From positions 1 through 21,813 of IMG/VR virus record IMGVR_UViG_3300044644_001354: 21,813 nt of DNA. The stretch is one strand, 5' to 3'. The notes beneath the pieces were generated by a model, which did no database searches, had not been told where the DNA came from, and worked only from the letters and a program-made list of their open reading frames with translations. Shown here one piece after another: positions 1 through 19,099 of the stretch; within the stretch, counting starts at the first letter, position 1, and each line of letters opens with the position of its first letter. A program made the translations under genes and the position numbers. This DNA comes from a virus.

Positions 1-166
1 TCTTCGGTTCAGCGCGAGCGGGTTTCGGTTTCGCAGGGGCAGAGGCCGGCGAGCCGACCTCCGCCACCCACGAGCCCTTGAAGTTGTCGGGCACCTCGAA
101 CTCGGTGCCAGGGCGGACACGGGCTCCTTGGAAGAAGCCCATCGAGATGGCCACGACTTTCTTCAT
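1..166 (-). CDS. Small conserved phage protein, 3' end cut by window edge
   Basis: This reading frame starts at ATG 164-166 and runs off the left edge, giving at least 55 residues (begins MKKVVAISMGFFQGARVRPG). A short beta-rich N-terminal part, with EFEVPDNFKGSWVAEV around residues 23-38, is followed by an Ala/Pro/Lys-rich tail. Small proteins with an FxVPxxxKGSW-like core are common in tailed-phage structural operons near the capsid genes, but I cannot assign a function. It starts 11 bases beyond the cement-protein stop, so it probably belongs to the same leftward late transcript. The C-terminus is not visible. Confidence 0.65.
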   Translation of the reverse strand, partial: MKKVVAISMGFFQGARVRPGTEFEVPDNFKGSWVAEVGSPASAPAKPKPARAEPK

Positions 167-177
167 GGGCTACCTAC

Positions 178-651
178 TCAGGCCTGGCTCGGAGAGTCGT
201 AGGCCTTCCAGCGAGCCACGTCTTCGGTCAGGAAGGCGTTGATCTTGCCGGCGTTCAGGGCCGTCGTGCCCGTGACCTGCTGCACGGCCAGGTAGCGCTC
301 GTAGGCAGCGCCCTCGAGCGGGAGCTGGATCGCAAACAGGGTGGTGCCTGCAGCGATGGCCGTGGTGCCCGTGGTGAACGCGCGCGAGGTCGCGTGCACC
401 GTCTGGGTGCCGTTGGTGGCGATCGTGTCGGTGCCGTCAGACACCAACTGGAAAGCCACGGTGCCGGCAGCGCTTGCGGTGGTGATGCCGGTGTCAACCG
501 TCACCACCAAGTACAGGGCCATGTCGCCACCGAGGTCCCGGGAGGGGGACACGGCGCCCAGGTCGATGATGTCGCCCAGGTTGTAGGTGCCGGCGGCGCC
601 GGTGTTGCACGAGACTGCATCGCAGAACTCGGTACGCTTATCGAGGATCAT
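178..651 (-). CDS. Bbp16-type capsid cement (decoration) protein
   Basis: The 157-residue product begins MILDKRTEFCDAVSCNTGAA and is a Gly/Thr/Ala-rich, mostly beta protein. The MILDKxTEFxDA start and overall length match the Bbp16 family of BPP-1-like phages, which binds the outer capsid surface and stabilises it. It lies directly downstream of the major capsid gene, the usual place for cement proteins. A clear ribosome site (AAAGGA) stands about 9 bases before the ATG, in a leader resembling that of the capsid gene, as expected for two abundant virion proteins. Family assignment is from recognised sequence features; the role is known from the family. Confidence 0.85.
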   Translation of the reverse strand: MILDKRTEFCDAVSCNTGAAGTYNLGDIIDLGAVSPSRDLGGDMALYLVVTVDTGITTASAAGTVAFQLVSDGTDTIATNGTQTVHATSRAFTTGTTAIAAGTTLFAIQLPLEGAAYERYLAVQQVTGTTALNAGKINAFLTEDVARWKAYDSPSQA

Positions 652-681
652 GGTGTGGTTCCTTTCGATTCAGTGCTGCGA

Positions 682-1677
682 TCAGACCACGCGGGTCTCG
701 GTGTTGATCAGGGCGTCGGTGCGGCGCACGGGGATGTCGTCGAACGTCATCACGCGCTTGCCAGAGACCGTCTCCCAGGTGAGGTTGGAGCTCACCCGCT
801 CGAGGATGCCCAGGCGCAGCTTCTCGCGCAGCGTGCGGTTCATGTAGAACACGGCGCGGCCCTTGCCGAAGCTGGGGATGCGCTCGCTCGCCTGCACCAT
901 CCAGTTGATCAGGTTCTTGGTGTTGGCGATCGTGCCGAGCTCGGAGATGTCGATGTTGGCGATGCGCACGAAGTAGCGCCAGTCGCGGATCGTCAGGCCA
1001 GCGTCCCAGCGGTAGTGGGTGCGGTAGCCTTCCATCCGGCCGCCGGCGCCGTCGACGTTCTCGATCGTCACCTGGCCCTTGTCGGACATCTGCAGGCCAG
1101 CCTGCGAGCCCTTCGGGTAGATGCCGAAGCCCGTCTGCGGACCCCACACGCACAGCCAGATCGACGTCAGGTCACCACCGGAGCCGCTGAAGGCGTCGAT
1201 GATGTTGTCGGCGTTCTGCGCGGACAGCGAGTTGTAGCGCGGGGCCAGGCCGGTGAAGGCCTCAGGCTCGGTGCCTTCGTTGCCGTAGAACAGCGTCGAG
1301 GCGTGCTCCTGGGAGATCGACTCGATATGGGCAGCGTCTTCGCTCAGGCGGAACGCGGCGGTGTTGCCGTTCAGGTCGGCCAGGGCCTTGTCGACCTCAG
1401 CGTAGGCCTCGAGCATGCCGCACGAGTCAGTGACCTGCGCGGTGGTGCTCTTGCCGGGCTGCACGCCGCCGTACAGCTTGCGCCACGTCGGGGTGGGCAG
1501 GCCGGTGCGGACCGTGGTCTTGTTGCCGGTGGGCAGGTTGCCCTCGACCCAAGACATGTCGGTCAGAACTTCGTTCGACTGGTTCAGCAGCTCGACGATG
1601 GTGTCGATCTTGCCATCGGGGTCCAGACGCTTGGAAACGTCCAGCAGCGTCGGGTTGTTTGCAGCGAGGGTAGCCAT
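682..1677 (-). CDS. Major capsid protein (BPP-1 type, HK97 fold)
   Basis: The 331-residue product (MATLAANNPTLLDVSKRLDP...) resembles the major capsid proteins of BPP-1-like podoviruses. Recognisable stretches include VKRL-like DVSKRLDPDGK near the start, LPTGNKTTVRTGLPTPTWRK around 49-68, a central DLTSIWLCVWGPQTGFGIYPKGS segment, and a C-terminal DDIPVRRTDALINTE, typical of this family. The protein should form the icosahedral shell. No N-terminal delta domain is evident, consistent with a separate scaffold gene upstream (1691-2272). A strong ribosome site (AAAGG) precedes the ATG. The cement gene follows 30 bases downstream. Confidence 0.9.
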   Translation of the reverse strand: MATLAANNPTLLDVSKRLDPDGKIDTIVELLNQSNEVLTDMSWVEGNLPTGNKTTVRTGLPTPTWRKLYGGVQPGKSTTAQVTDSCGMLEAYAEVDKALADLNGNTAAFRLSEDAAHIESISQEHASTLFYGNEGTEPEAFTGLAPRYNSLSAQNADNIIDAFSGSGGDLTSIWLCVWGPQTGFGIYPKGSQAGLQMSDKGQVTIENVDGAGGRMEGYRTHYRWDAGLTIRDWRYFVRIANIDISELGTIANTKNLINWMVQASERIPSFGKGRAVFYMNRTLREKLRLGILERVSSNLTWETVSGKRVMTFDDIPVRRTDALINTETRVV

Positions 1678-1690
1678 GGTGTGTTGCCTT

Positions 1691-2272
1691 TCAATTCATG
1701 GAGGGGAACAGTTTTCGGGCCGGGTCGGTCGCGGCGCTTACAGGCGCGCCTTGCACGAAGCGGTCTTCGCTGATGGCCTTGCCGGCGCGATAGAACGCTC
1801 GGATCACCTCGGGGTGGTTGCCCAGCCCGGTAGCGTTCAGCACGTCCCGCAGCTCGGGGGTGCCGAAGGTGTCCAGCGCCTTCTTGGCCACCGCTAGGTT
1901 CTCCTGGAGCTTGTCGCCGCCGAGATCCTTGTCGGCCTTGACCTGCTCCACCCAGCTCTGCACCAGCTCGGTGTGCTTCTCGGCTTGACGCTGGGCCATC
2001 TTGGCGCCGACGTCCGCAACCTTTTGCGCACCCACCTGGTCGAGCTTGAGCTCCTTGGCGATCGCCTTGAACTCGTCAGCCGCGACGCTGTCGAGTTCCA
2101 CGCCCTCGGGCATCGTGAGCTCGTAGCTCTCGGGCACGGCAGGCGCGGTGGCCTGAGTGCCCGCAGGAGCGGGGCTCGCGTTGTCCGCCGGCGTTGCGGC
2201 AGTTCCATCACTCGTCTTCGGTTCCCCAGCGTCGTTGGCAGGTGTGCTGGTCCCCGCAGTCAATTCATCCAT
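1691..2272 (-). CDS. Capsid assembly scaffold protein
   Basis: The 193-residue product has an Ala/Pro/Thr/Gly-rich, probably disordered N-terminus (about 1-45), a charged helical middle rich in Lys, Glu and Gln (about 60-130), and a short basic C-terminal part ending DPARKLFPSMN. This low-complexity start plus helical body, immediately upstream of the major capsid gene, is the usual signature of a podovirus scaffold, which templates the procapsid and then leaves. Position and composition carry the call, since scaffold sequences diverge quickly. The start overlaps the end of the Bbp19-like gene by 8 bases, suggesting coupled translation. Confidence 0.75.
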   Translation of the reverse strand: MDELTAGTSTPANDAGEPKTSDGTAATPADNASPAPAGTQATAPAVPESYELTMPEGVELDSVAADEFKAIAKELKLDQVGAQKVADVGAKMAQRQAEKHTELVQSWVEQVKADKDLGGDKLQENLAVAKKALDTFGTPELRDVLNATGLGNHPEVIRAFYRAGKAISEDRFVQGAPVSAATDPARKLFPSMN

Positions 2273-2591
2273 CTTTGCCCTGGTACTCTTTCAGGAGTTT
2301 GAAATACCCTTCAGGCGAGGCCTCGAGCACTTCCGCTGTGATGAACAGGCCGAGATGTCGCTTGCCCTCGTTGAACGCCATAACGCTTCCGCTATGGTTG
2401 AACGTGGTGCGGTTGACACCGGCCTCCTCCAGCAGACGACTCACGACGCGCCGACCTTGGGGATGGGCCATCAGCCACTTGAGATCCTCGAGCTCTCTGC
2501 GACGTTTCTCGCGTGCCACCGTCTCTTCGACTTCAGCTTCGCGTTCCTGGCTTCGCAGGTCTGTCAGTTCTCTCATGGTTGACGGGGGCAT
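2265..2591 (-). CDS. Bbp19-like phage protein
   Basis: The 108-residue product has a charged helical N-terminus (about 1-40, rich in Glu and Arg) and a conserved C-terminal domain with LMAHPQGRRVVSRLLEEAG, FN-GS, FNEGKRHLG and YFKLLKEYQ. These elements match the Bbp19-like phage domain found between portal and scaffold or capsid genes in BPP-1-like phages. The family's job is not established; the constant position suggests head assembly or a minor virion component. The gene lies 33 bases after the portal stop and overlaps the scaffold start. An internal start at Met6 cannot be excluded. Confidence 0.8.
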   Translation of the reverse strand: MPPSTMRELTDLRSQEREAEVEETVAREKRRRELEDLKWLMAHPQGRRVVSRLLEEAGVNRTTFNHSGSVMAFNEGKRHLGLFITAEVLEASPEGYFKLLKEYQGKDG

Positions 2592-2610
2592 CGTAGGAGC
2601 GCCCCGCGCT

Positions 2611-2624
2611 CAGACGGACACGCC
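2611..2624. repeat. 14-bp direct repeat copy 1 (just past portal stop)
   Basis: CAGACGGACACGCC on the plus strand reads GGCGTGTCCGTCTG on the coding strand and follows the portal TAA directly. An identical copy lies at 4709-4722, just past the large-terminase stop. In both places it reads in frame as Gly-Val-Ser-Val after the stop. Confidence 0.6.
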
Positions 2625-4352
2625 TTACTCGACCATCGCAGGGCTCGGGCTCGAGTAGCCCTGCAGCATGCCCATCACGTCGCGCAGTTGGTCGGTGTTG
2701 ATCTCGCTCGCGGTCTTCGCGCTCTCGACCACCTGAGGCGCGGTGGCGGCCGAGGCTTGCGCTTGCATGGCCTGGGCACGCTGAGCGCGGATCTCGGCCA
2801 CGTCAGCGTCTGACACGACCAGTGCCGGGTTGACGCCAAACGCCTCGCCCAAGTCGTCGATGACCTGGTCGAAGTTGATCTTGTCCAGCACTTCAGGTCT
2901 AGCCGCGGCGATCTGCATCGCGCTGCCGACCATGCGTTCCATGCCGTTGACCGCGACCGCACGCTGAGCCTGGGCCAGCACGCTGATGAACTCGATGTTG
3001 AGCTCGGTGCCGGCGATCTCCTCGGGCGGCGGGGGCAGCACCCCAGCGTCCACCAGGCGGTCGAACGTGATGTCGATGAGCGGGCTCAGCAGCTCGTTGT
3101 GCAGGCGCTCGAGCACCGGGCCCAGCATGAGCAGCTTCTCCTCGTGGCGCTCGGCGACCTCGGTGGCCGTCATGCGACCGTTGGTGGGCTGGCTGGCCAG
3201 CATCAGGAACAGGTCAGCGTAGTAGGCCTGGCGGATGCGGTCGCGGGTGTCGCCGATCGACTGCAGCAGGAAGTCCAGGCGCAGGTTGACGTCGAACGCC
3301 GTGCGCACACCACCGCTCGGGTTCATCGCGTCGACGTACATCACCCCGCCCGGCAGGCGCGACTGCGACGAGTTCTTGTAGGCGGTGGGCACTTGCAGCG
3401 GCGGGTTGACCTGGTACTCGATGGCCTGGGCCTTGCGCTGCTGCTCGAACTGCAGTTGCTTCACGTCGCCCAGCGCCTCCATGCCGGGCGAGCGACCGTA
3501 GATGTCGTTGCCGGTCACGGTCCAGCGCGGGCACAGCCCAGGGAAGCGCTTGAAACCGGACTCGCTCAGGTACTGGTCCCAGGACTCCTTGCCGGGCTCG
3601 AAGTAGCACGACTCGAACGGCATGTTCTTGCCGTCGACTTTGCGATAGTCGCGCTCGCGTCGTGGCTGGATCATGTGCACCACGTCGACCCACTGGTCGT
3701 AGGCGCCCTTGTCCCAAAGGTTGCGCACGGTCGCGCTGCAGTTGGCCTTGCCGAACTGCTCGACCATCTGCGCCACCGTCATCTTCATCTCACGCGCCAG
3801 CGTGTCGACCTTGCCCTTGTGGTTGGTCGACAGGTAATACTCGCCGACGGTCAGCGGGTAGTGGTGGATGACGTTGTCGAAGTCGGGCAGCACCACGCTG
3901 GCCCAGGTGCCGAACGCGCCGAGTTCCTCGTAGCAGCCGTGCAGGGCGTTGTACGTGTTGGAACTTGCAAACACGGCGCGCATGAGCTCTGCGCTGTCGT
4001 GCAGCCACTGCTTCACGGGCCCGAACTCCATCAGGTCCTTGTCGGGCAGGCCGAGGCGGAACCACGGGCGCGCGGGCGAGGTGACGCCCGACATCATGCC
4101 GGCGGCCAACGTGCGGACGCTGAAGATCGCGGTGTTGTCGTAGATCAGCCCGTGCTTCTTGTTGCCCTGGTTGGTCTCGCTCGTGATGAACCGGCCGGCG
4201 CGCGGGAACTGGTACTGGGCGATGTCGCGCCAGTGCATGTCCCAGCTCGAGCGCTCGGTCTTGAGCGCCGACAGCCGGGCGAGCTTGCGGTTGATGTCGA
4301 AGCCGGTGCCCTTCGGGCTTTGGCCGGCGTCGGGCCCCGCGCCGTACAGCAT
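2625..4352 (-). CDS. Portal / head-to-tail connecting protein
   Basis: The 575-residue product matches the T7-like head-tail connector family of podoviruses (Pfam head-tail connecting type). Recognisable parts are the N-terminal WRDIAQYQFPRAGRF, the DNTAIFSVRTLAAGMMSGVTSPARPWFRL block around 70-100, an aromatic YLSTNHKG stretch, ELGAFGTWASVVLPD, and the late RMTATEVAERHEEKLLMLGPVLERLHNELLSPLID segment. It should form the dodecameric ring for DNA entry. Length is usual for the family. The Ala/Gln-rich C-terminus (about 525-575) looks flexible. The ATG lies 3 bases beyond the stop of the preceding miniprotein, with only a weak ribosome site, so translation is probably coupled. Confidence 0.92.
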   Translation of the reverse strand: MLYGAGPDAGQSPKGTGFDINRKLARLSALKTERSSWDMHWRDIAQYQFPRAGRFITSETNQGNKKHGLIYDNTAIFSVRTLAAGMMSGVTSPARPWFRLGLPDKDLMEFGPVKQWLHDSAELMRAVFASSNTYNALHGCYEELGAFGTWASVVLPDFDNVIHHYPLTVGEYYLSTNHKGKVDTLAREMKMTVAQMVEQFGKANCSATVRNLWDKGAYDQWVDVVHMIQPRRERDYRKVDGKNMPFESCYFEPGKESWDQYLSESGFKRFPGLCPRWTVTGNDIYGRSPGMEALGDVKQLQFEQQRKAQAIEYQVNPPLQVPTAYKNSSQSRLPGGVMYVDAMNPSGGVRTAFDVNLRLDFLLQSIGDTRDRIRQAYYADLFLMLASQPTNGRMTATEVAERHEEKLLMLGPVLERLHNELLSPLIDITFDRLVDAGVLPPPPEEIAGTELNIEFISVLAQAQRAVAVNGMERMVGSAMQIAAARPEVLDKINFDQVIDDLGEAFGVNPALVVSDADVAEIRAQRAQAMQAQASAATAPQVVESAKTASEINTDQLRDVMGMLQGYSSPSPAMVE

Positions 4353-4355
4353 CGG

Positions 4356-4535
4356 TCAGCCGCCGAGCAGGGAGGTGCCGCCGGTGCTGAGCGCGCCCGA
4401 AGACACACCAGAGGGGCCCGTCAGCATCGTGCCCATGCCGCCCGCCGGCCGTGTCTTGCGACGCGCTGCCATGGCGTCAGGCGCCTTGGCCTCCTGCGGA
4501 GGGGGCGGAGGCGGGGGGATGTTGGGGGATGACAT
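4356..4535 (-). CDS. Pro-rich miniprotein upstream of portal
   Basis: A 59-residue frame starts at ATG 4533-4535 with a good ribosome site (AAGGAGA, about 11 bases upstream). It begins [20 protein letters not shown] and ends with [23 protein letters not shown]. Small proteins with this layout (poly-Pro start, basic middle, TLLTGPxGV...TLLGG end) are frequent in tailed-phage head operons and are often overlooked for their size; their role is not known to me. Its stop falls 3 bases before the portal start. Its first 59 bases overlap, in another frame, the tail of the HNH remnant. Confidence 0.85.
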
Positions 4536-4725
4536 GCAAATTTTGGTTCTCCTTGCGCCGCCGGTTTCGCGCTTGTTCTAGGCGCGTCGCCCAACGGCAG
4601 TTGGATGGCTCGTAGTTCCCGTTAGGGTCTATGTGGTCCAACGTTCGATCGTCGGGCCGCTCGCCCATGTCTTCCAGGAATGATGCGAAGTTATCCGCCC
4701 AACGACGACAGACGGACACGCCGCG
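4477..4725 (-). pseudogene. HNH endonuclease remnant fused in frame behind the terminase stop
   Basis: Reading on past the large-terminase TGA in the same frame gives [13 protein letters not shown], then [21 protein letters not shown] and [20 protein letters not shown]. This is the second half of a phage homing-type HNH protein, whose full form usually reads YGGRGIxVCxRW...LDRIDNxGNYxPxNCRWAT. The first half (the region before GGRG) is absent, and the only possible start is GTG 4717-4719. The DH and NxxNxRW residues of the HNH core are still present, so decay is mainly by truncation. The end runs through the next gene's start in another frame. It could instead be a short translated peptide of up to 80 residues; I favour a remnant. 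Confidence 0.7.
4709..4722. repeat. 14-bp direct repeat copy 2 (just past terminase stop)
   Basis: CAGACGGACACGCC is identical to 2611-2624. On the coding strand it sits 3 bases after the terminase stop and encodes the GVSV part of the HNH remnant. Confidence 0.6.
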
Positions 4726-6072
4726 TCAGAACCCGGCCAGCGGGTCGTAGGCGGTGACGTCGGTCTGGCGGTCGAACTGGCGCGGGTGGTGGCCCGCCAG
4801 CACCGCGGCCTGGCGGCGCAGGTCGCGCTCCTTGACCACGGGGTAGGAGAACGTGAGCGCCAGCGCGTCGCCCAGGTCGGGCGAGGGCAGGCCCCGCGAC
4901 TTGAGCTCGTCCTTGCTCTCCAGCACAACGCGGTCCTGGTTGTCGAAGCTGTAGGTCGGTGCAGCCAGGTCCTGCTTGAGCGCGGTGTCTTTGGGGATCA
5001 CCCCGCCGGCCAGCAGCCACTCGCGCATCTCGAACCAGATCTCGGCCCGCTTGTTGAGGTAGCGGGGCTTGGAGGCCCGGCCACCGAAGTGCACCTCGAC
5101 GACCTCGTGGCCCATCTGCCGGAGCTTGTCGATCACTCCGGCCCCGTTGCCTGCATCGCAAAACACGGCGTCGGCCTGGTAGTCGGCCATGGCCTGGCTC
5201 ACGTAGGCGGCCAGCGCCATGTTGTCGATCTTGGTGTAGACCTTGAACCCGCGGCAGTACAGGCCCTGGCGCACGGCGATCACGCTGCGGTCGTCGCCAA
5301 AGCGCGCGGGGTCCACCCCCAGGATCACGGGCGCGAAGTCGTACTGCTCGCGGCGCACATGTCTGCGTGTGGCCTCCTCCACGTCCGACAGGCTGATCAG
5401 TTGCTCGTCGCCCGCGGCGCTGAAGTCGCAGAGGTACTCGCGCCTCCAGGACATCTCCGGCAGCTCGGACTCCAGGCGGGCCACCTCGCTCGGTGGCAGC
5501 GACTCGGTGTCGTGCACCGTGTAGAGCGCAGCGTGCCAGTCGGGCTTGTCGCGCGCGTCGAAGAACAGCTTCGAGAACAGGTTGATGCCCTTGGGCGTGC
5601 CGATGAACAACGCCCACCCGAGCCGGTCAGACAGCGCCGGCTGGATGATGTCGTCCCACACCTCGGGCTTCATCTGCGCGGTCTCGTCGAGCACCACCCC
5701 GTCCAGGCGCACGCCCCGCATGCGGTCGGGGCTGTCGGCCCCGTAGACGCGGATCACGGCCTGGTTGTTCGTGAACCGCACCCACAGCTCGGACTCGTTG
5801 ATCTCGACCAGGCCCCGCATCAGCAGTGGCGCCACCTTCTGCTTCAGGCGCAGCCAGGCGATGGCCTTGGCTTGCTTCAGCAGCGGGGCGACGTAGAAGA
5901 ACAGCCCGAGCTCTTGGTCGAAGCGCAGCGCCTTGTCGATGAGCTCAGCGAGCGCGAGCTCGGTCTTGCCGGCCCGCCGGTGCAGCGCCAGCACCGTGAA
6001 GCGCTGGCGGTTGAGGTGGCACTGCTTCTGCCAGGCGCGAGGCCTGTAGCCCAGGTCGATGACTTGCGTCAC
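4726..6072 (-). CDS. terL: Terminase large subunit (ATPase and nuclease)
   Basis: The 448-residue product is the packaging motor that cuts concatemers and pumps DNA through the portal. Visible motifs in order: Walker A HRRAGKT (about 31-37), Walker B GVVLDET (about 125-131), the coupling motif FIGTPKG (about 156-162), and an RNase H-fold nuclease with GVDPARFGDD (about 252-261), FCDAGNG (about 304-310) and a late DLGDALALTFSYP with the third acidic residue. All expected catalytic residues are present. The start ATG overlaps the small-subunit stop by 4 bases (ATGA). Directly after the stop is the HNH remnant, but the C-terminal YDPLAGF looks like a normal family end. Confidence 0.95.
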   Translation of the reverse strand: MTQVIDLGYRPRAWQKQCHLNRQRFTVLALHRRAGKTELALAELIDKALRFDQELGLFFYVAPLLKQAKAIAWLRLKQKVAPLLMRGLVEINESELWVRFTNNQAVIRVYGADSPDRMRGVRLDGVVLDETAQMKPEVWDDIIQPALSDRLGWALFIGTPKGINLFSKLFFDARDKPDWHAALYTVHDTESLPPSEVARLESELPEMSWRREYLCDFSAAGDEQLISLSDVEEATRRHVRREQYDFAPVILGVDPARFGDDRSVIAVRQGLYCRGFKVYTKIDNMALAAYVSQAMADYQADAVFCDAGNGAGVIDKLRQMGHEVVEVHFGGRASKPRYLNKRAEIWFEMREWLLAGGVIPKDTALKQDLAAPTYSFDNQDRVVLESKDELKSRGLPSPDLGDALALTFSYPVVKERDLRRQAAVLAGHHPRQFDRQTDVTAYDPLAGF

Positions 6073-17542: not shown

Positions 17543-17730
17543 TGCGCTGCCCACACTGCGGGGTCTGGACCCGCGTGCTCGAGACCCGCACCCGCGAGGA
17601 CGGCACCCGCCGCCGCACCTACGAGTGCGCCAACCTGCACAAGTTCAACACCGTCGAGCGGGTGGAGCTCGTGCAGCACGGCGGCGCCCGCCAGAGCAAG
17701 AAGGCCGAGCGTGCAGTACAAGCCGCGTGA
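17542..17730 (+). CDS. Zinc-ribbon protein (NrdR N-terminus-like)
   Basis: ATG 17542 overlaps the nuclease stop by one base (TGATG); GTG 17539 is an alternative. The 62-residue product reads MRCPHCGVWTRVLETRTRED, then RRRTYECANLHKFNTVERV, close to the zinc ribbon at the start of NrdR, but with no ATP-cone. The first pair is Cys3/Cys6. The second pair shows Cys29 and then His33 where NrdR has Cys. The C-terminal half is basic and low-complexity. It could bind DNA or partner the helicase, which begins 20 bases before this gene ends. Confidence 0.72.
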   Translation: MRCPHCGVWTRVLETRTREDGTRRRTYECANLHKFNTVERVELVQHGGARQSKKAERAVQAA

Positions 17731-19099
17731 CTACCAGCAAGCGATCGTGGCGCACATCGCTGCGCACGAGCGCTGCAACGTGTGGGCGGGCATGGGCACC
17801 GGCAAGACGGTGTCCACCCTGACCGCACTGCAGGGCCTGGCACTGGTCGAGGACCCCTTCCCCGCCCTCGTGCTGGCGCCGCTGCGGGTGGCCTCCAGCA
17901 CCTGGCCCAGCGAGCTCGCGAAGTGGGCGCACCTCCAGGGGTTGAAGATCGCCCGCGCGATCGGCTCGCCGGCCGAGCGCGACGCCGGCATCTTTGCCCA
18001 CGCCGACATCGTCTGCATCAACTACGACAACGTGGAGTGGCTGGTCGACAGGTGCGAGCGGTTCCCGTCGTTCCCGTACCGCACCGTCATCGCCGACGAG
18101 TCGACCAGGCTCAAGGGCTTCCGCGTCAAGCAAGGCGGCAAGCGCGCCCAGGCCCTGGGCAAGGTCGCGCACAAGCATGTGCGGCGCTGGGTCAACCTGA
18201 CCGGCACGCCCGCGCCCAACGGGTTCCTGGACCTGTGGGGCCAGCAGTGGTTCATCGACGCCGGTCAGCGCCTGGGCCGTTCGTTCTCGGCGTTCGAGGA
18301 TCGGTGGTTCAAGGTCAAGCGAGCACCCGGCCAGAAGTACGGCGGCGCCGTCACGCTGCTCGAGGGCGCGCAGGCCGAGATCGAGGGGCGCATGGCCTCG
18401 TGCACGCTGACCGTGCGCGCGGCCGACTACATCGACCTGCCGCCGCTGGTGGAGAACGTGGTCGAGGTGGAACTGCCACCAACCGCGCGCCGACACTACC
18501 GAGAGCTCGAGCGCGAGATGTTCACGGTGCTGGCCGGTGGCGTTGAGGTCGAGGCGTTCAACGCTGCAGGCCGCACAATGAAGTGCCTGCAGGCCGCCAA
18601 CGGCGCGCTCTACACTGACGACAAGGGAACATGGAAGGAGCTGCACGATGCCAAACTTGATGCCCTCGCGTCCGTGGTGGAGGAAGCTGCTGGGAATCCA
18701 ATCCTGGTCGCCTACCAGTGGAAGAGCGACCTCGCCCGACTACAGCGTGCGTTTCCTCAAGGTCGGGCGCTGGACACTGACCCTCGAACGATCGAGGCGT
18801 GGAACCTGGGACGGATACCACTGCTATTCGTTCACCCTCAGAGCGCTGGCCACGGGCTCAACCTCCAGGACGGGGGGAACATCCTCGTGTTCTTCGGCCT
18901 CTGGTGGGACCTCGAGACGCACGAACAAGTGATCGAGCGCATAGGCCCGACACGCCAGGCCCAGGCCGGCTACAACCGGCCGGTGTACGTGCACCGCATC
19001 GTGGCCCGCGACACCGTCGACGAGCTCGTGCTGGCGCGGCTGCAGACCAAGGCGTCGGTGCAGTCGATCCTGTTGGACGCCATGAAAGGAAGACGATGA
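17711..19099 (+). CDS. SNF2-like superfamily 2 DNA helicase
   Basis: GTG 17711-17713 lies inside the zinc-ribbon gene. The 462-residue product has Walker A GMGTGKT (27-33), the DExx box VIADES (126-131), motif III LTGTPAPNG (163-171), and a second RecA lobe with SAGHGLNLQ, FFGLWWDLETHEQ and ERIGPTRQ, followed by a helical HRIVARDTVDELVLARLQTK end. This is the compact phage SNF2 form, expected to remodel DNA or forks together with the VRR-NUC nuclease. All helicase motifs are intact. The next gene starts in its stop codon (ATGA). Confidence 0.9.
   Translation: MQYKPRDYQQAIVAHIAAHERCNVWAGMGTGKTVSTLTALQGLALVEDPFPALVLAPLRVASSTWPSELAKWAHLQGLKIARAIGSPAERDAGIFAHADIVCINYDNVEWLVDRCERFPSFPYRTVIADESTRLKGFRVKQGGKRAQALGKVAHKHVRRWVNLTGTPAPNGFLDLWGQQWFIDAGQRLGRSFSAFEDRWFKVKRAPGQKYGGAVTLLEGAQAEIEGRMASCTLTVRAADYIDLPPLVENVVEVELPPTARRHYRELEREMFTVLAGGVEVEAFNAAGRTMKCLQAANGALYTDDKGTWKELHDAKLDALASVVEEAAGNPILVAYQWKSDLARLQRAFPQGRALDTDPRTIEAWNLGRIPLLFVHPQSAGHGLNLQDGGNILVFFGLWWDLETHEQVIERIGPTRQAQAGYNRPVYVHRIVARDTVDELVLARLQTKASVQSILLDAMKGRR

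Follow-up and report, generated by a model that had tools for sequence, protein, structure and literature searches.

How did the rear part of an HNH endonuclease gene come to lie, in frame, directly behind the stop codon of a phage terminase gene? The window, that is, the whole stretch of 21,813 nucleotides that was analysed (positions 1 to 21,813 of IMG/VR virus record IMGVR_UViG_3300044644_001354), encodes on its minus strand, in this order, the small terminase subunit, the large terminase subunit (terL; 6072-4726, 448 aa, TGA at 4728-4726, PHROG_2 with E 4e-54), the HNH fragment, a 59-aa proline-rich protein (4535-4356, with a TTG at 4539 and an ATG at 4535) and the portal or head-to-tail connector (4352-2625, PF12236 with E 2.9e-179). 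As noted in a preliminary description of this DNA, the fragment (4725-4477, minus strand) follows the terL stop in frame: a CGC at 4725 opens it, and the frame closes at 4477 after 82 codons and a stop, corresponding to the full-length gene from R105 onward, as family matches and comparison with the relative L002 indicate. It is considered highly probable that an HNH gene was acquired and then half deleted between promoter-like direct repeats, leaving the fragment as a probable regulatory region. The best terL relatives in bacterial assemblies are those of a Comamonadaceae MAG and a Limnohabitans MAG (63% each). Elsewhere in the window, a 745-codon open frame on the minus strand (16731-14497) and a 708-codon plus-strand frame overlap; neither the former nor the minus-strand frame at 17648-18646 (333 codons) matched a PHROG at E <= 0.001.

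The fragment matches PHROG HNH families with E-values of 1.3e-24 (PHROG_3377) and 3.2e-24, and the full-length protein of L002 matches PHROG_374 with an E-value of 3.5e-64. Using tblastn, the remnant had matches in 714 of 50,697 phage records at E <= 1e-5; among the 40 matches listed, many phage groups are present and several are annotated as HNH endonuclease. The three full-length HNH genes gave no match in Pfam, and the remnant gave DUF6966 alone, under its cut-off. A profile of the HNH family found nothing among solved structures at E <= 0.1, and Foldseek found nothing at E <= 0.001, with a second look giving a best Z of 5.3 to chains whose titles are not those of HNH nucleases. Since neither Pfam nor solved structures gave a match, the N-terminal domain of the protein is termed DNA-binding only in a putative sense.

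The state of this site in related phages was obtained by searching IMG/VR with terL, which resulted in 45 loci, 16 of which (L001-L016) are relatives with a terL identity of at least 76%. The preliminary description had pointed to the terL-portal junctions of relatives as the place to look, and these proved informative: the HNH gene is full in 4 of the 16, truncated in one and not found in the sequence compared in 11. In the tblastn search of all 45 terL loci, full-length genes were found in L002, L006, L012 and L013, and the truncation of the window type was found in L007 only. All four lie between terL and portal. The DNA of the gene does not differ between L006 and L013; hence, the four loci represent three distinct intact genes. 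The two relatives L001 and L002 have terL proteins 100% identical to that of the window. In L002, a complete HNH gene of 186 codons (ATG at 3154) lies between terL and the proline-rich gene. In L001, which is as close as L002, there is no HNH gene, and 74 nt separate the terL stop from the start region of the next gene; the sole HNH match of L001 by tblastn is this next gene in another reading frame. In L010, 162 bp past the terL stop were compared, and the start of the next gene is already reached at offset 64. An empty (L001), a full (L002) and a truncated (window) allele are thus seen at one site, a presence/absence polymorphism with flanks that are approximately 99% identical. In L006 and L013, an extra small gene (MCAVGSSQETS...) is located after terL and its box, ahead of the HNH cassette; this gene is also located behind terL in L009, where no HNH was found.

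The relation between the truncated and the full allele can be read directly from the alignment. The window matches L002 in two parts, at 99.39% over L002 positions 1-3124 and at 99.25% over positions 3464-4801; the two parts share 17 bases of the window and, given a difference of 356 between their offsets, the window equals the L002 arrangement minus 356 bp. The endpoints of this deletion lie in an imperfect 17-bp repeat, GACGC[TC/GG]CGTGTCCGTC, of which L002 has one copy behind terL (GACGCTCCGTGTCCGTC) and one inside the HNH gene. The window has a single junction copy, GACGCGGCGTGTCCGTC (4727-4711, minus strand), at the overlap of the two L002 matches, and it carries the letters of the internal copy at both mismatches (L002 behind terL, TGACGCTCCGTGTCCGTC; L002 inside the HNH gene, GGACGCGGCGTGTCCGTC; window, TGACGCGGCGTGTCCGTC). 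This indicates an exchange within the shared GACGC, or within the 10-bp block with later conversion. A point against the deletion model is that the repeats match exactly over only a short length where the exchange probably took place, namely 5 bp, or 10 bp in the case of later conversion of the mismatches. What had been described as the possible scar of a homing event is a scar of an HNH gene; the homing event itself did not make it, and a later deletion between direct repeats did. The front half had been reported as missing, and it is: residues 1-104 of the L002 gene are gone, and the L007 fragment likewise matches L002 from residue 105. The gene start and residues 1-104, absent from the window, are both present in L002, L006, L012 and L013.

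The in-frame position of the fragment had also led to the proposal that read-through gives the terminase an HNH tail; the terL TGA would then be passed by a programmed or a leaky mechanism. The frame after the TGA is open for 82 codons and the next base is a C; UGAC is a weak stop context in bacteria. The terL genes of L001 and L002, however, end at the same TGA and are followed by a frame without HNH, and since TGA-C is also present there, the stop context is not tuned to a tail. The repeat has the same phase in both copies (R-S-V-S-V behind terL, R-G-V-S-V in the HNH gene), which is why the fragment falls in the terL frame; the phase match is a one-in-three chance set by the repeat, and the deletion length of 356 is not a multiple of three. 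The tail would also lack residues 1-104 and be altered at a constant residue, and the same fused form is present in only one of the 16 close relatives, L007. Read-through thus finds no support and is regarded as extremely improbable.

Between the junction and 4477, the window differs from L002 at a single position, 4634 (minus strand), which changes LDRID to LDHID; the comparison with L007, down to 4527, gives the same single difference. The HNH core had been described as retained. This holds for the invariant columns of a 16-row alignment that lie within the fragment, but not for the R of LDRID: a pattern open to any residue at this position gave 74 motif matches in 80 HNH loci, and all 74 have an R there. 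The R-to-H change fits a loss of protein-level selection on the gene, as far as one change can. The fragment also overruns the start of the next gene at ATG 4535, as had been observed; this overlap was not made by the scar, since the intact gene of L002 ends identically (...SAGGQGA*). As modelled by AlphaFold (mean pLDDT 80.5, pTM 0.52), the L002 protein has a strand-rich N-terminal part, a poorly predicted linker at residues 65-75 and the first helix of the nuclease part at residues 79-92. In the fragment modelled alone (mean pLDDT 70.3), the two strands and the helix of the core are kept.

These models bear on the possibility that the new junction gave rise to a working mini-HNH: an 80-codon ORF beginning with GTG at 4719 would yield the nuclease domain on its own. 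This ORF is present, a beta-beta-alpha core is predicted in it, and the L007 fragment is unchanged relative to L002 across the 190 bases compared. However, by eye, no sequence resembling a ribosome-binding site is present upstream of the GTG, and the mini-HNH would lack the first helix of the nuclease part in the model. The fragment is also modelled more weakly than the full-length protein, and it has an H where all motif matches have an R. A mini-HNH is therefore decidedly unlikely.

The truncated allele of L007 is informative in another respect. The contig of L007 stops 199 bp past the terL stop, and the comparison covers that far. The L007 terL has many differences from that of the window, the last of which is at 4760; from 4759 to 4527, where the comparison ends, the two differ at 4634 only. 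The 21-bp word that spans the junction was found in one IMG/VR contig, that of L007, in a search from which the genome of the window may itself be absent. One alternative is a chimera formed during assembly or amplification, as the contigs come from uncultured phages and two near-identical alleles could be mis-joined. Against this, the 21-bp junction is also present in the L007 contig from metagenome 3300043468, which may be independent of the window's sample; the terL joined to it there has many base differences from that of the window, and the exact word common to the repeat copies is 10 bp, whereas usual assembly k-mers are longer than this. A chimera is therefore considered very improbable. 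A crossover in the last ~35 bases of terL would most simply explain the sharing between L007 and the window. Either the truncated allele would have moved between lineages, or the intact allele would have moved and been deleted twice. L007 thus suggests allele transfer between lineages, for which homing would not be required.

The repeat at which the deletion took place holds the first box of an element that recurs in these phages. This two-box element, CGTGTCC[G/T]T-N18-[T/C]A...T, is found in the orientation of terL. In the window, box 1, CGTGTCCGT, is located at 4720-4712 (minus strand); its distance of 5 nt from the terL stop is the one found in L001 and L002. Box 2, TAACTT, follows at 4693-4688 (minus strand) after a spacer of 18 nt. 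Another copy, CGTGTCCGT-N18-TACGAT, lies behind the portal gene (2622-2590, minus strand). In 15 of the 16 relatives, box 1 follows the terL stop at a distance of 1-5 nt; in L008, box 1 and the terL end overlap. In eight related records, whose counts are not independent because of this relatedness, 38 copies of CGTGTCCGT were found, 37 on the terL strand and one on the opposite strand; the reversed pattern, as a control, was found once. Among 32 distinct box-1 contexts, [TC]A...T is present at spacer 18 in 22, and at each of the 29 other spacers in 0 to 4. Without the three contexts internal to HNH genes and the two in HNH leaders, this becomes 19 of 27 at spacer 18 and at most 3 elsewhere. 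The 10 contexts without [TC]A...T at spacer 18 include three with AACAAT or GACAAT there, one with CACAAT one base nearer and six with nothing alike. The fixed spacer, the single orientation and the frequent position before genes fit a promoter, and this sequence pattern makes it likely that the element is one.

Several genes have an ATG 6 nt past box 2, which would make their transcripts nearly leaderless. A second HNH gene in L006 (1959-1720, minus strand) is antisense to structural genes and has an element just upstream (2034-2002, minus strand), CGTGTCCGT-N18-CAGAAT, with the ATG 6 nt past box 2. Its box is the sole one opposite the terL strand in the eight records searched, and the G-I-E-V codons of the gene contain no internal box. 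A search for PF00940, the single-subunit phage RNA polymerase, as a user of the element gave 0 matches in 7 records, and 14 control genomes also gave 0.

The intact HNH genes contain this element within their coding region. It reads CGTGTCCGT-N18-TAACTT in L002 and CGTGTCCGT-N18-TAAATT in L006/L013 and L012, and it spans the codons from G-V-S-V to K/N-F. The mark of an embedded promoter, the consensus and spacing of the genome's own elements within an ORF, is thus present in three distinct HNH genes. As these share an ancestor, the internal box counts as one observation rather than three. Among 80 loci retrieved using the HNH protein, 43 rows matched the motif pattern, and the box was compared at that position only; it is exact in four rows (three distinct genes, all at this site), and the remaining 39 have 2 to 7 mismatched bases. 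In a three-way DNA alignment of the HNH genes, 304 of 561 columns are identical, and the longest identical runs are the start of the next gene (16), the stretch with the ribosome-binding site (13) and the GGCGTGTCCGT box (11). The fourth run of at least 9 is TCTGACGGTC near the 5' end (10). The ribosome-binding-site stretch, CGGCGCAAGGAGA, is identical across the three distinct intact genes; in the window it lies inside the remnant at 4560-4548 (minus strand) and holds the ribosome-binding-site-like AAGGAG (4554-4549) for the next gene.

The internal element could also be a chance codon match without a promoter role, in which case the deletion would still have occurred via the repeats and the remnant would be plain debris. 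When codons are chosen at random among synonyms, the box alone arises in 2.8-3.2% of draws if the codon usage is taken from five ORFs of the window, one being unverified, in 4.6% as calculated from four annotated window genes and in 5.4-5.6% with the HNH genes' own usage; together with TA...T, it arises in 0.3-0.7% of draws with the usage of the window ORFs and in 0.8-1.5% with that of the HNH genes. An internal box is thus expected in approximately 3-6% of synonymous codings, and box 2 of the window is weak, as TAACTT sits at the edge of the box-2 range. Against this reading, box 1, spacer and box 2 occur together in three distinct genes here and box 1 in none of the 39 other homologue rows. 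In addition, the G, V and S codons of the box are identical in all three genes, compared with 36 of 104 shared-residue codons overall, and embedded promoters are known from free-standing homing genes of T4 (PMC2988022). Conservation of the internal box in the three genes is suggestive of a role, not proof of one, and a chance match is judged to have a substantial, although minority, probability.

A hairpin is predicted across the HNH start codon in L012 (4355-4400, GCAUGCCC...GGGCAUGC), L006 (4646-4691) and L002 (3124-3169), with z-scores of -2.58, -3.92 and, weakly, -1.31, respectively. Because its 5' arm is in the promoter spacer, it would form only on read-through transcripts.

The preferred explanation, acquisition followed by deletion between promoter-like repeats, can be set out as follows. 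In this phage group, a free-standing endonuclease gene of the HNH homing type would have entered the interval between terL and the gene that follows it. Recombination or slippage between the box behind terL and the box inside the HNH gene would then have deleted the 5' part of the latter. The 356 bp lost comprise the -10-like box of the HNH gene, its start and residues 1-104, predicted to form the N-terminal domain and the opening helix of the nuclease part. The internal box site has taken the place of the site behind terL, and the ribosome-binding site of the next gene has stayed. A dead nuclease fragment is left, which probably serves the next gene as its 5' regulatory region: the promoter-like boxes are as far from terL as those of the empty allele, and close to the 3' end of the fragment there is a ribosome-binding site. 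The truncated allele would likely be a site that the intact HNH gene cannot use. The sequences themselves establish the deletion with its two ends, the three states of the allele and the recurrence of the two-box element; we infer that the element works as a promoter, that the HNH gene homes, that the truncated allele resists homing and that there is any selection to keep the fragment.

A broader proposal is made tentatively, with confidence a little short of even. Embedded promoters may also be an exit for homing genes, by excision of the front between two copies, and the window would be an example, a regulatory region that is probably resistant to homing and has spread to L007. Because the inserted gene would carry a copy of the phage's promoter in the orientation of the one behind which it sits, recombination could excise the nuclease front and leave exactly one promoter and the ribosome-binding site of the next gene. 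With empty, intact and truncated alleles in near-identical phages, the loss step of a homing gene becomes readable to the base. Truncated homing genes and embedded promoters were already known; the deletion between two promoter-like copies is new. In the literature searched, no homing gene deleted between two promoter copies was found, which does not exclude one in print.

Truncated genes of this kind have been described in several phage groups. In lactococcal Skunavirus phages, 56 of 268 HNH endonuclease genes are truncated according to passages of one study (PMC12724721), and these remnants, like the one described here, are partly deleted and vary among relatives. The words 'promoter' and 'deletion' are absent from the main text of that study, and its passages give no repeat mechanism (PMC12724721). 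The same passages describe HrdP, a GVE2-like HNH protein encoded between terL and portal in all 89 Skunavirus genomes and thought to serve packaging (PMC12724721). The neighbourhood is the same here; however, no HNH was found in 11 of the 16 close relatives. For Xanthomonas oryzae phages and hegG/hegJ of T5, passages of another paper describe degenerate HNH/HNN-AP2 genes, graded decay and gain-and-loss models (PMC2248197). The window likewise has a phage HNH gene at a stage of decay, but there the decay proceeds by domain loss, insertion and frameshift, and a deletion between promoter repeats was not found in those passages (PMC2248197).

The closest comparison is with T4. In the passages of the T4 review, the free-standing homing genes segG, segA, segE, mobB and mobC have promoters of downstream genes embedded in their coding regions, and I-TevIII is named as inactivated by a large deletion, for which the passage gives no comparable detail (PMC2988022). 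As with the T4 homing genes, the gene described here is intergenic beside essential genes and has promoter-like elements inside and upstream of the nuclease ORF, and the predicted hairpin over its start codon resembles the control of I-TevI, segB and mobE (PMC2988022). The review argues that embedded promoters favour retention, since a deletion that removes the promoter would harm the phage (PMC2988022). In contrast, the deletion in the window, running from the upstream to the embedded copy, removes most of the nuclease front and yet spares one promoter-like site. If the element is a promoter, a phage would be able to shed a homing gene and still keep the downstream promoter, which bears on the retention argument made for T4 (PMC2988022).
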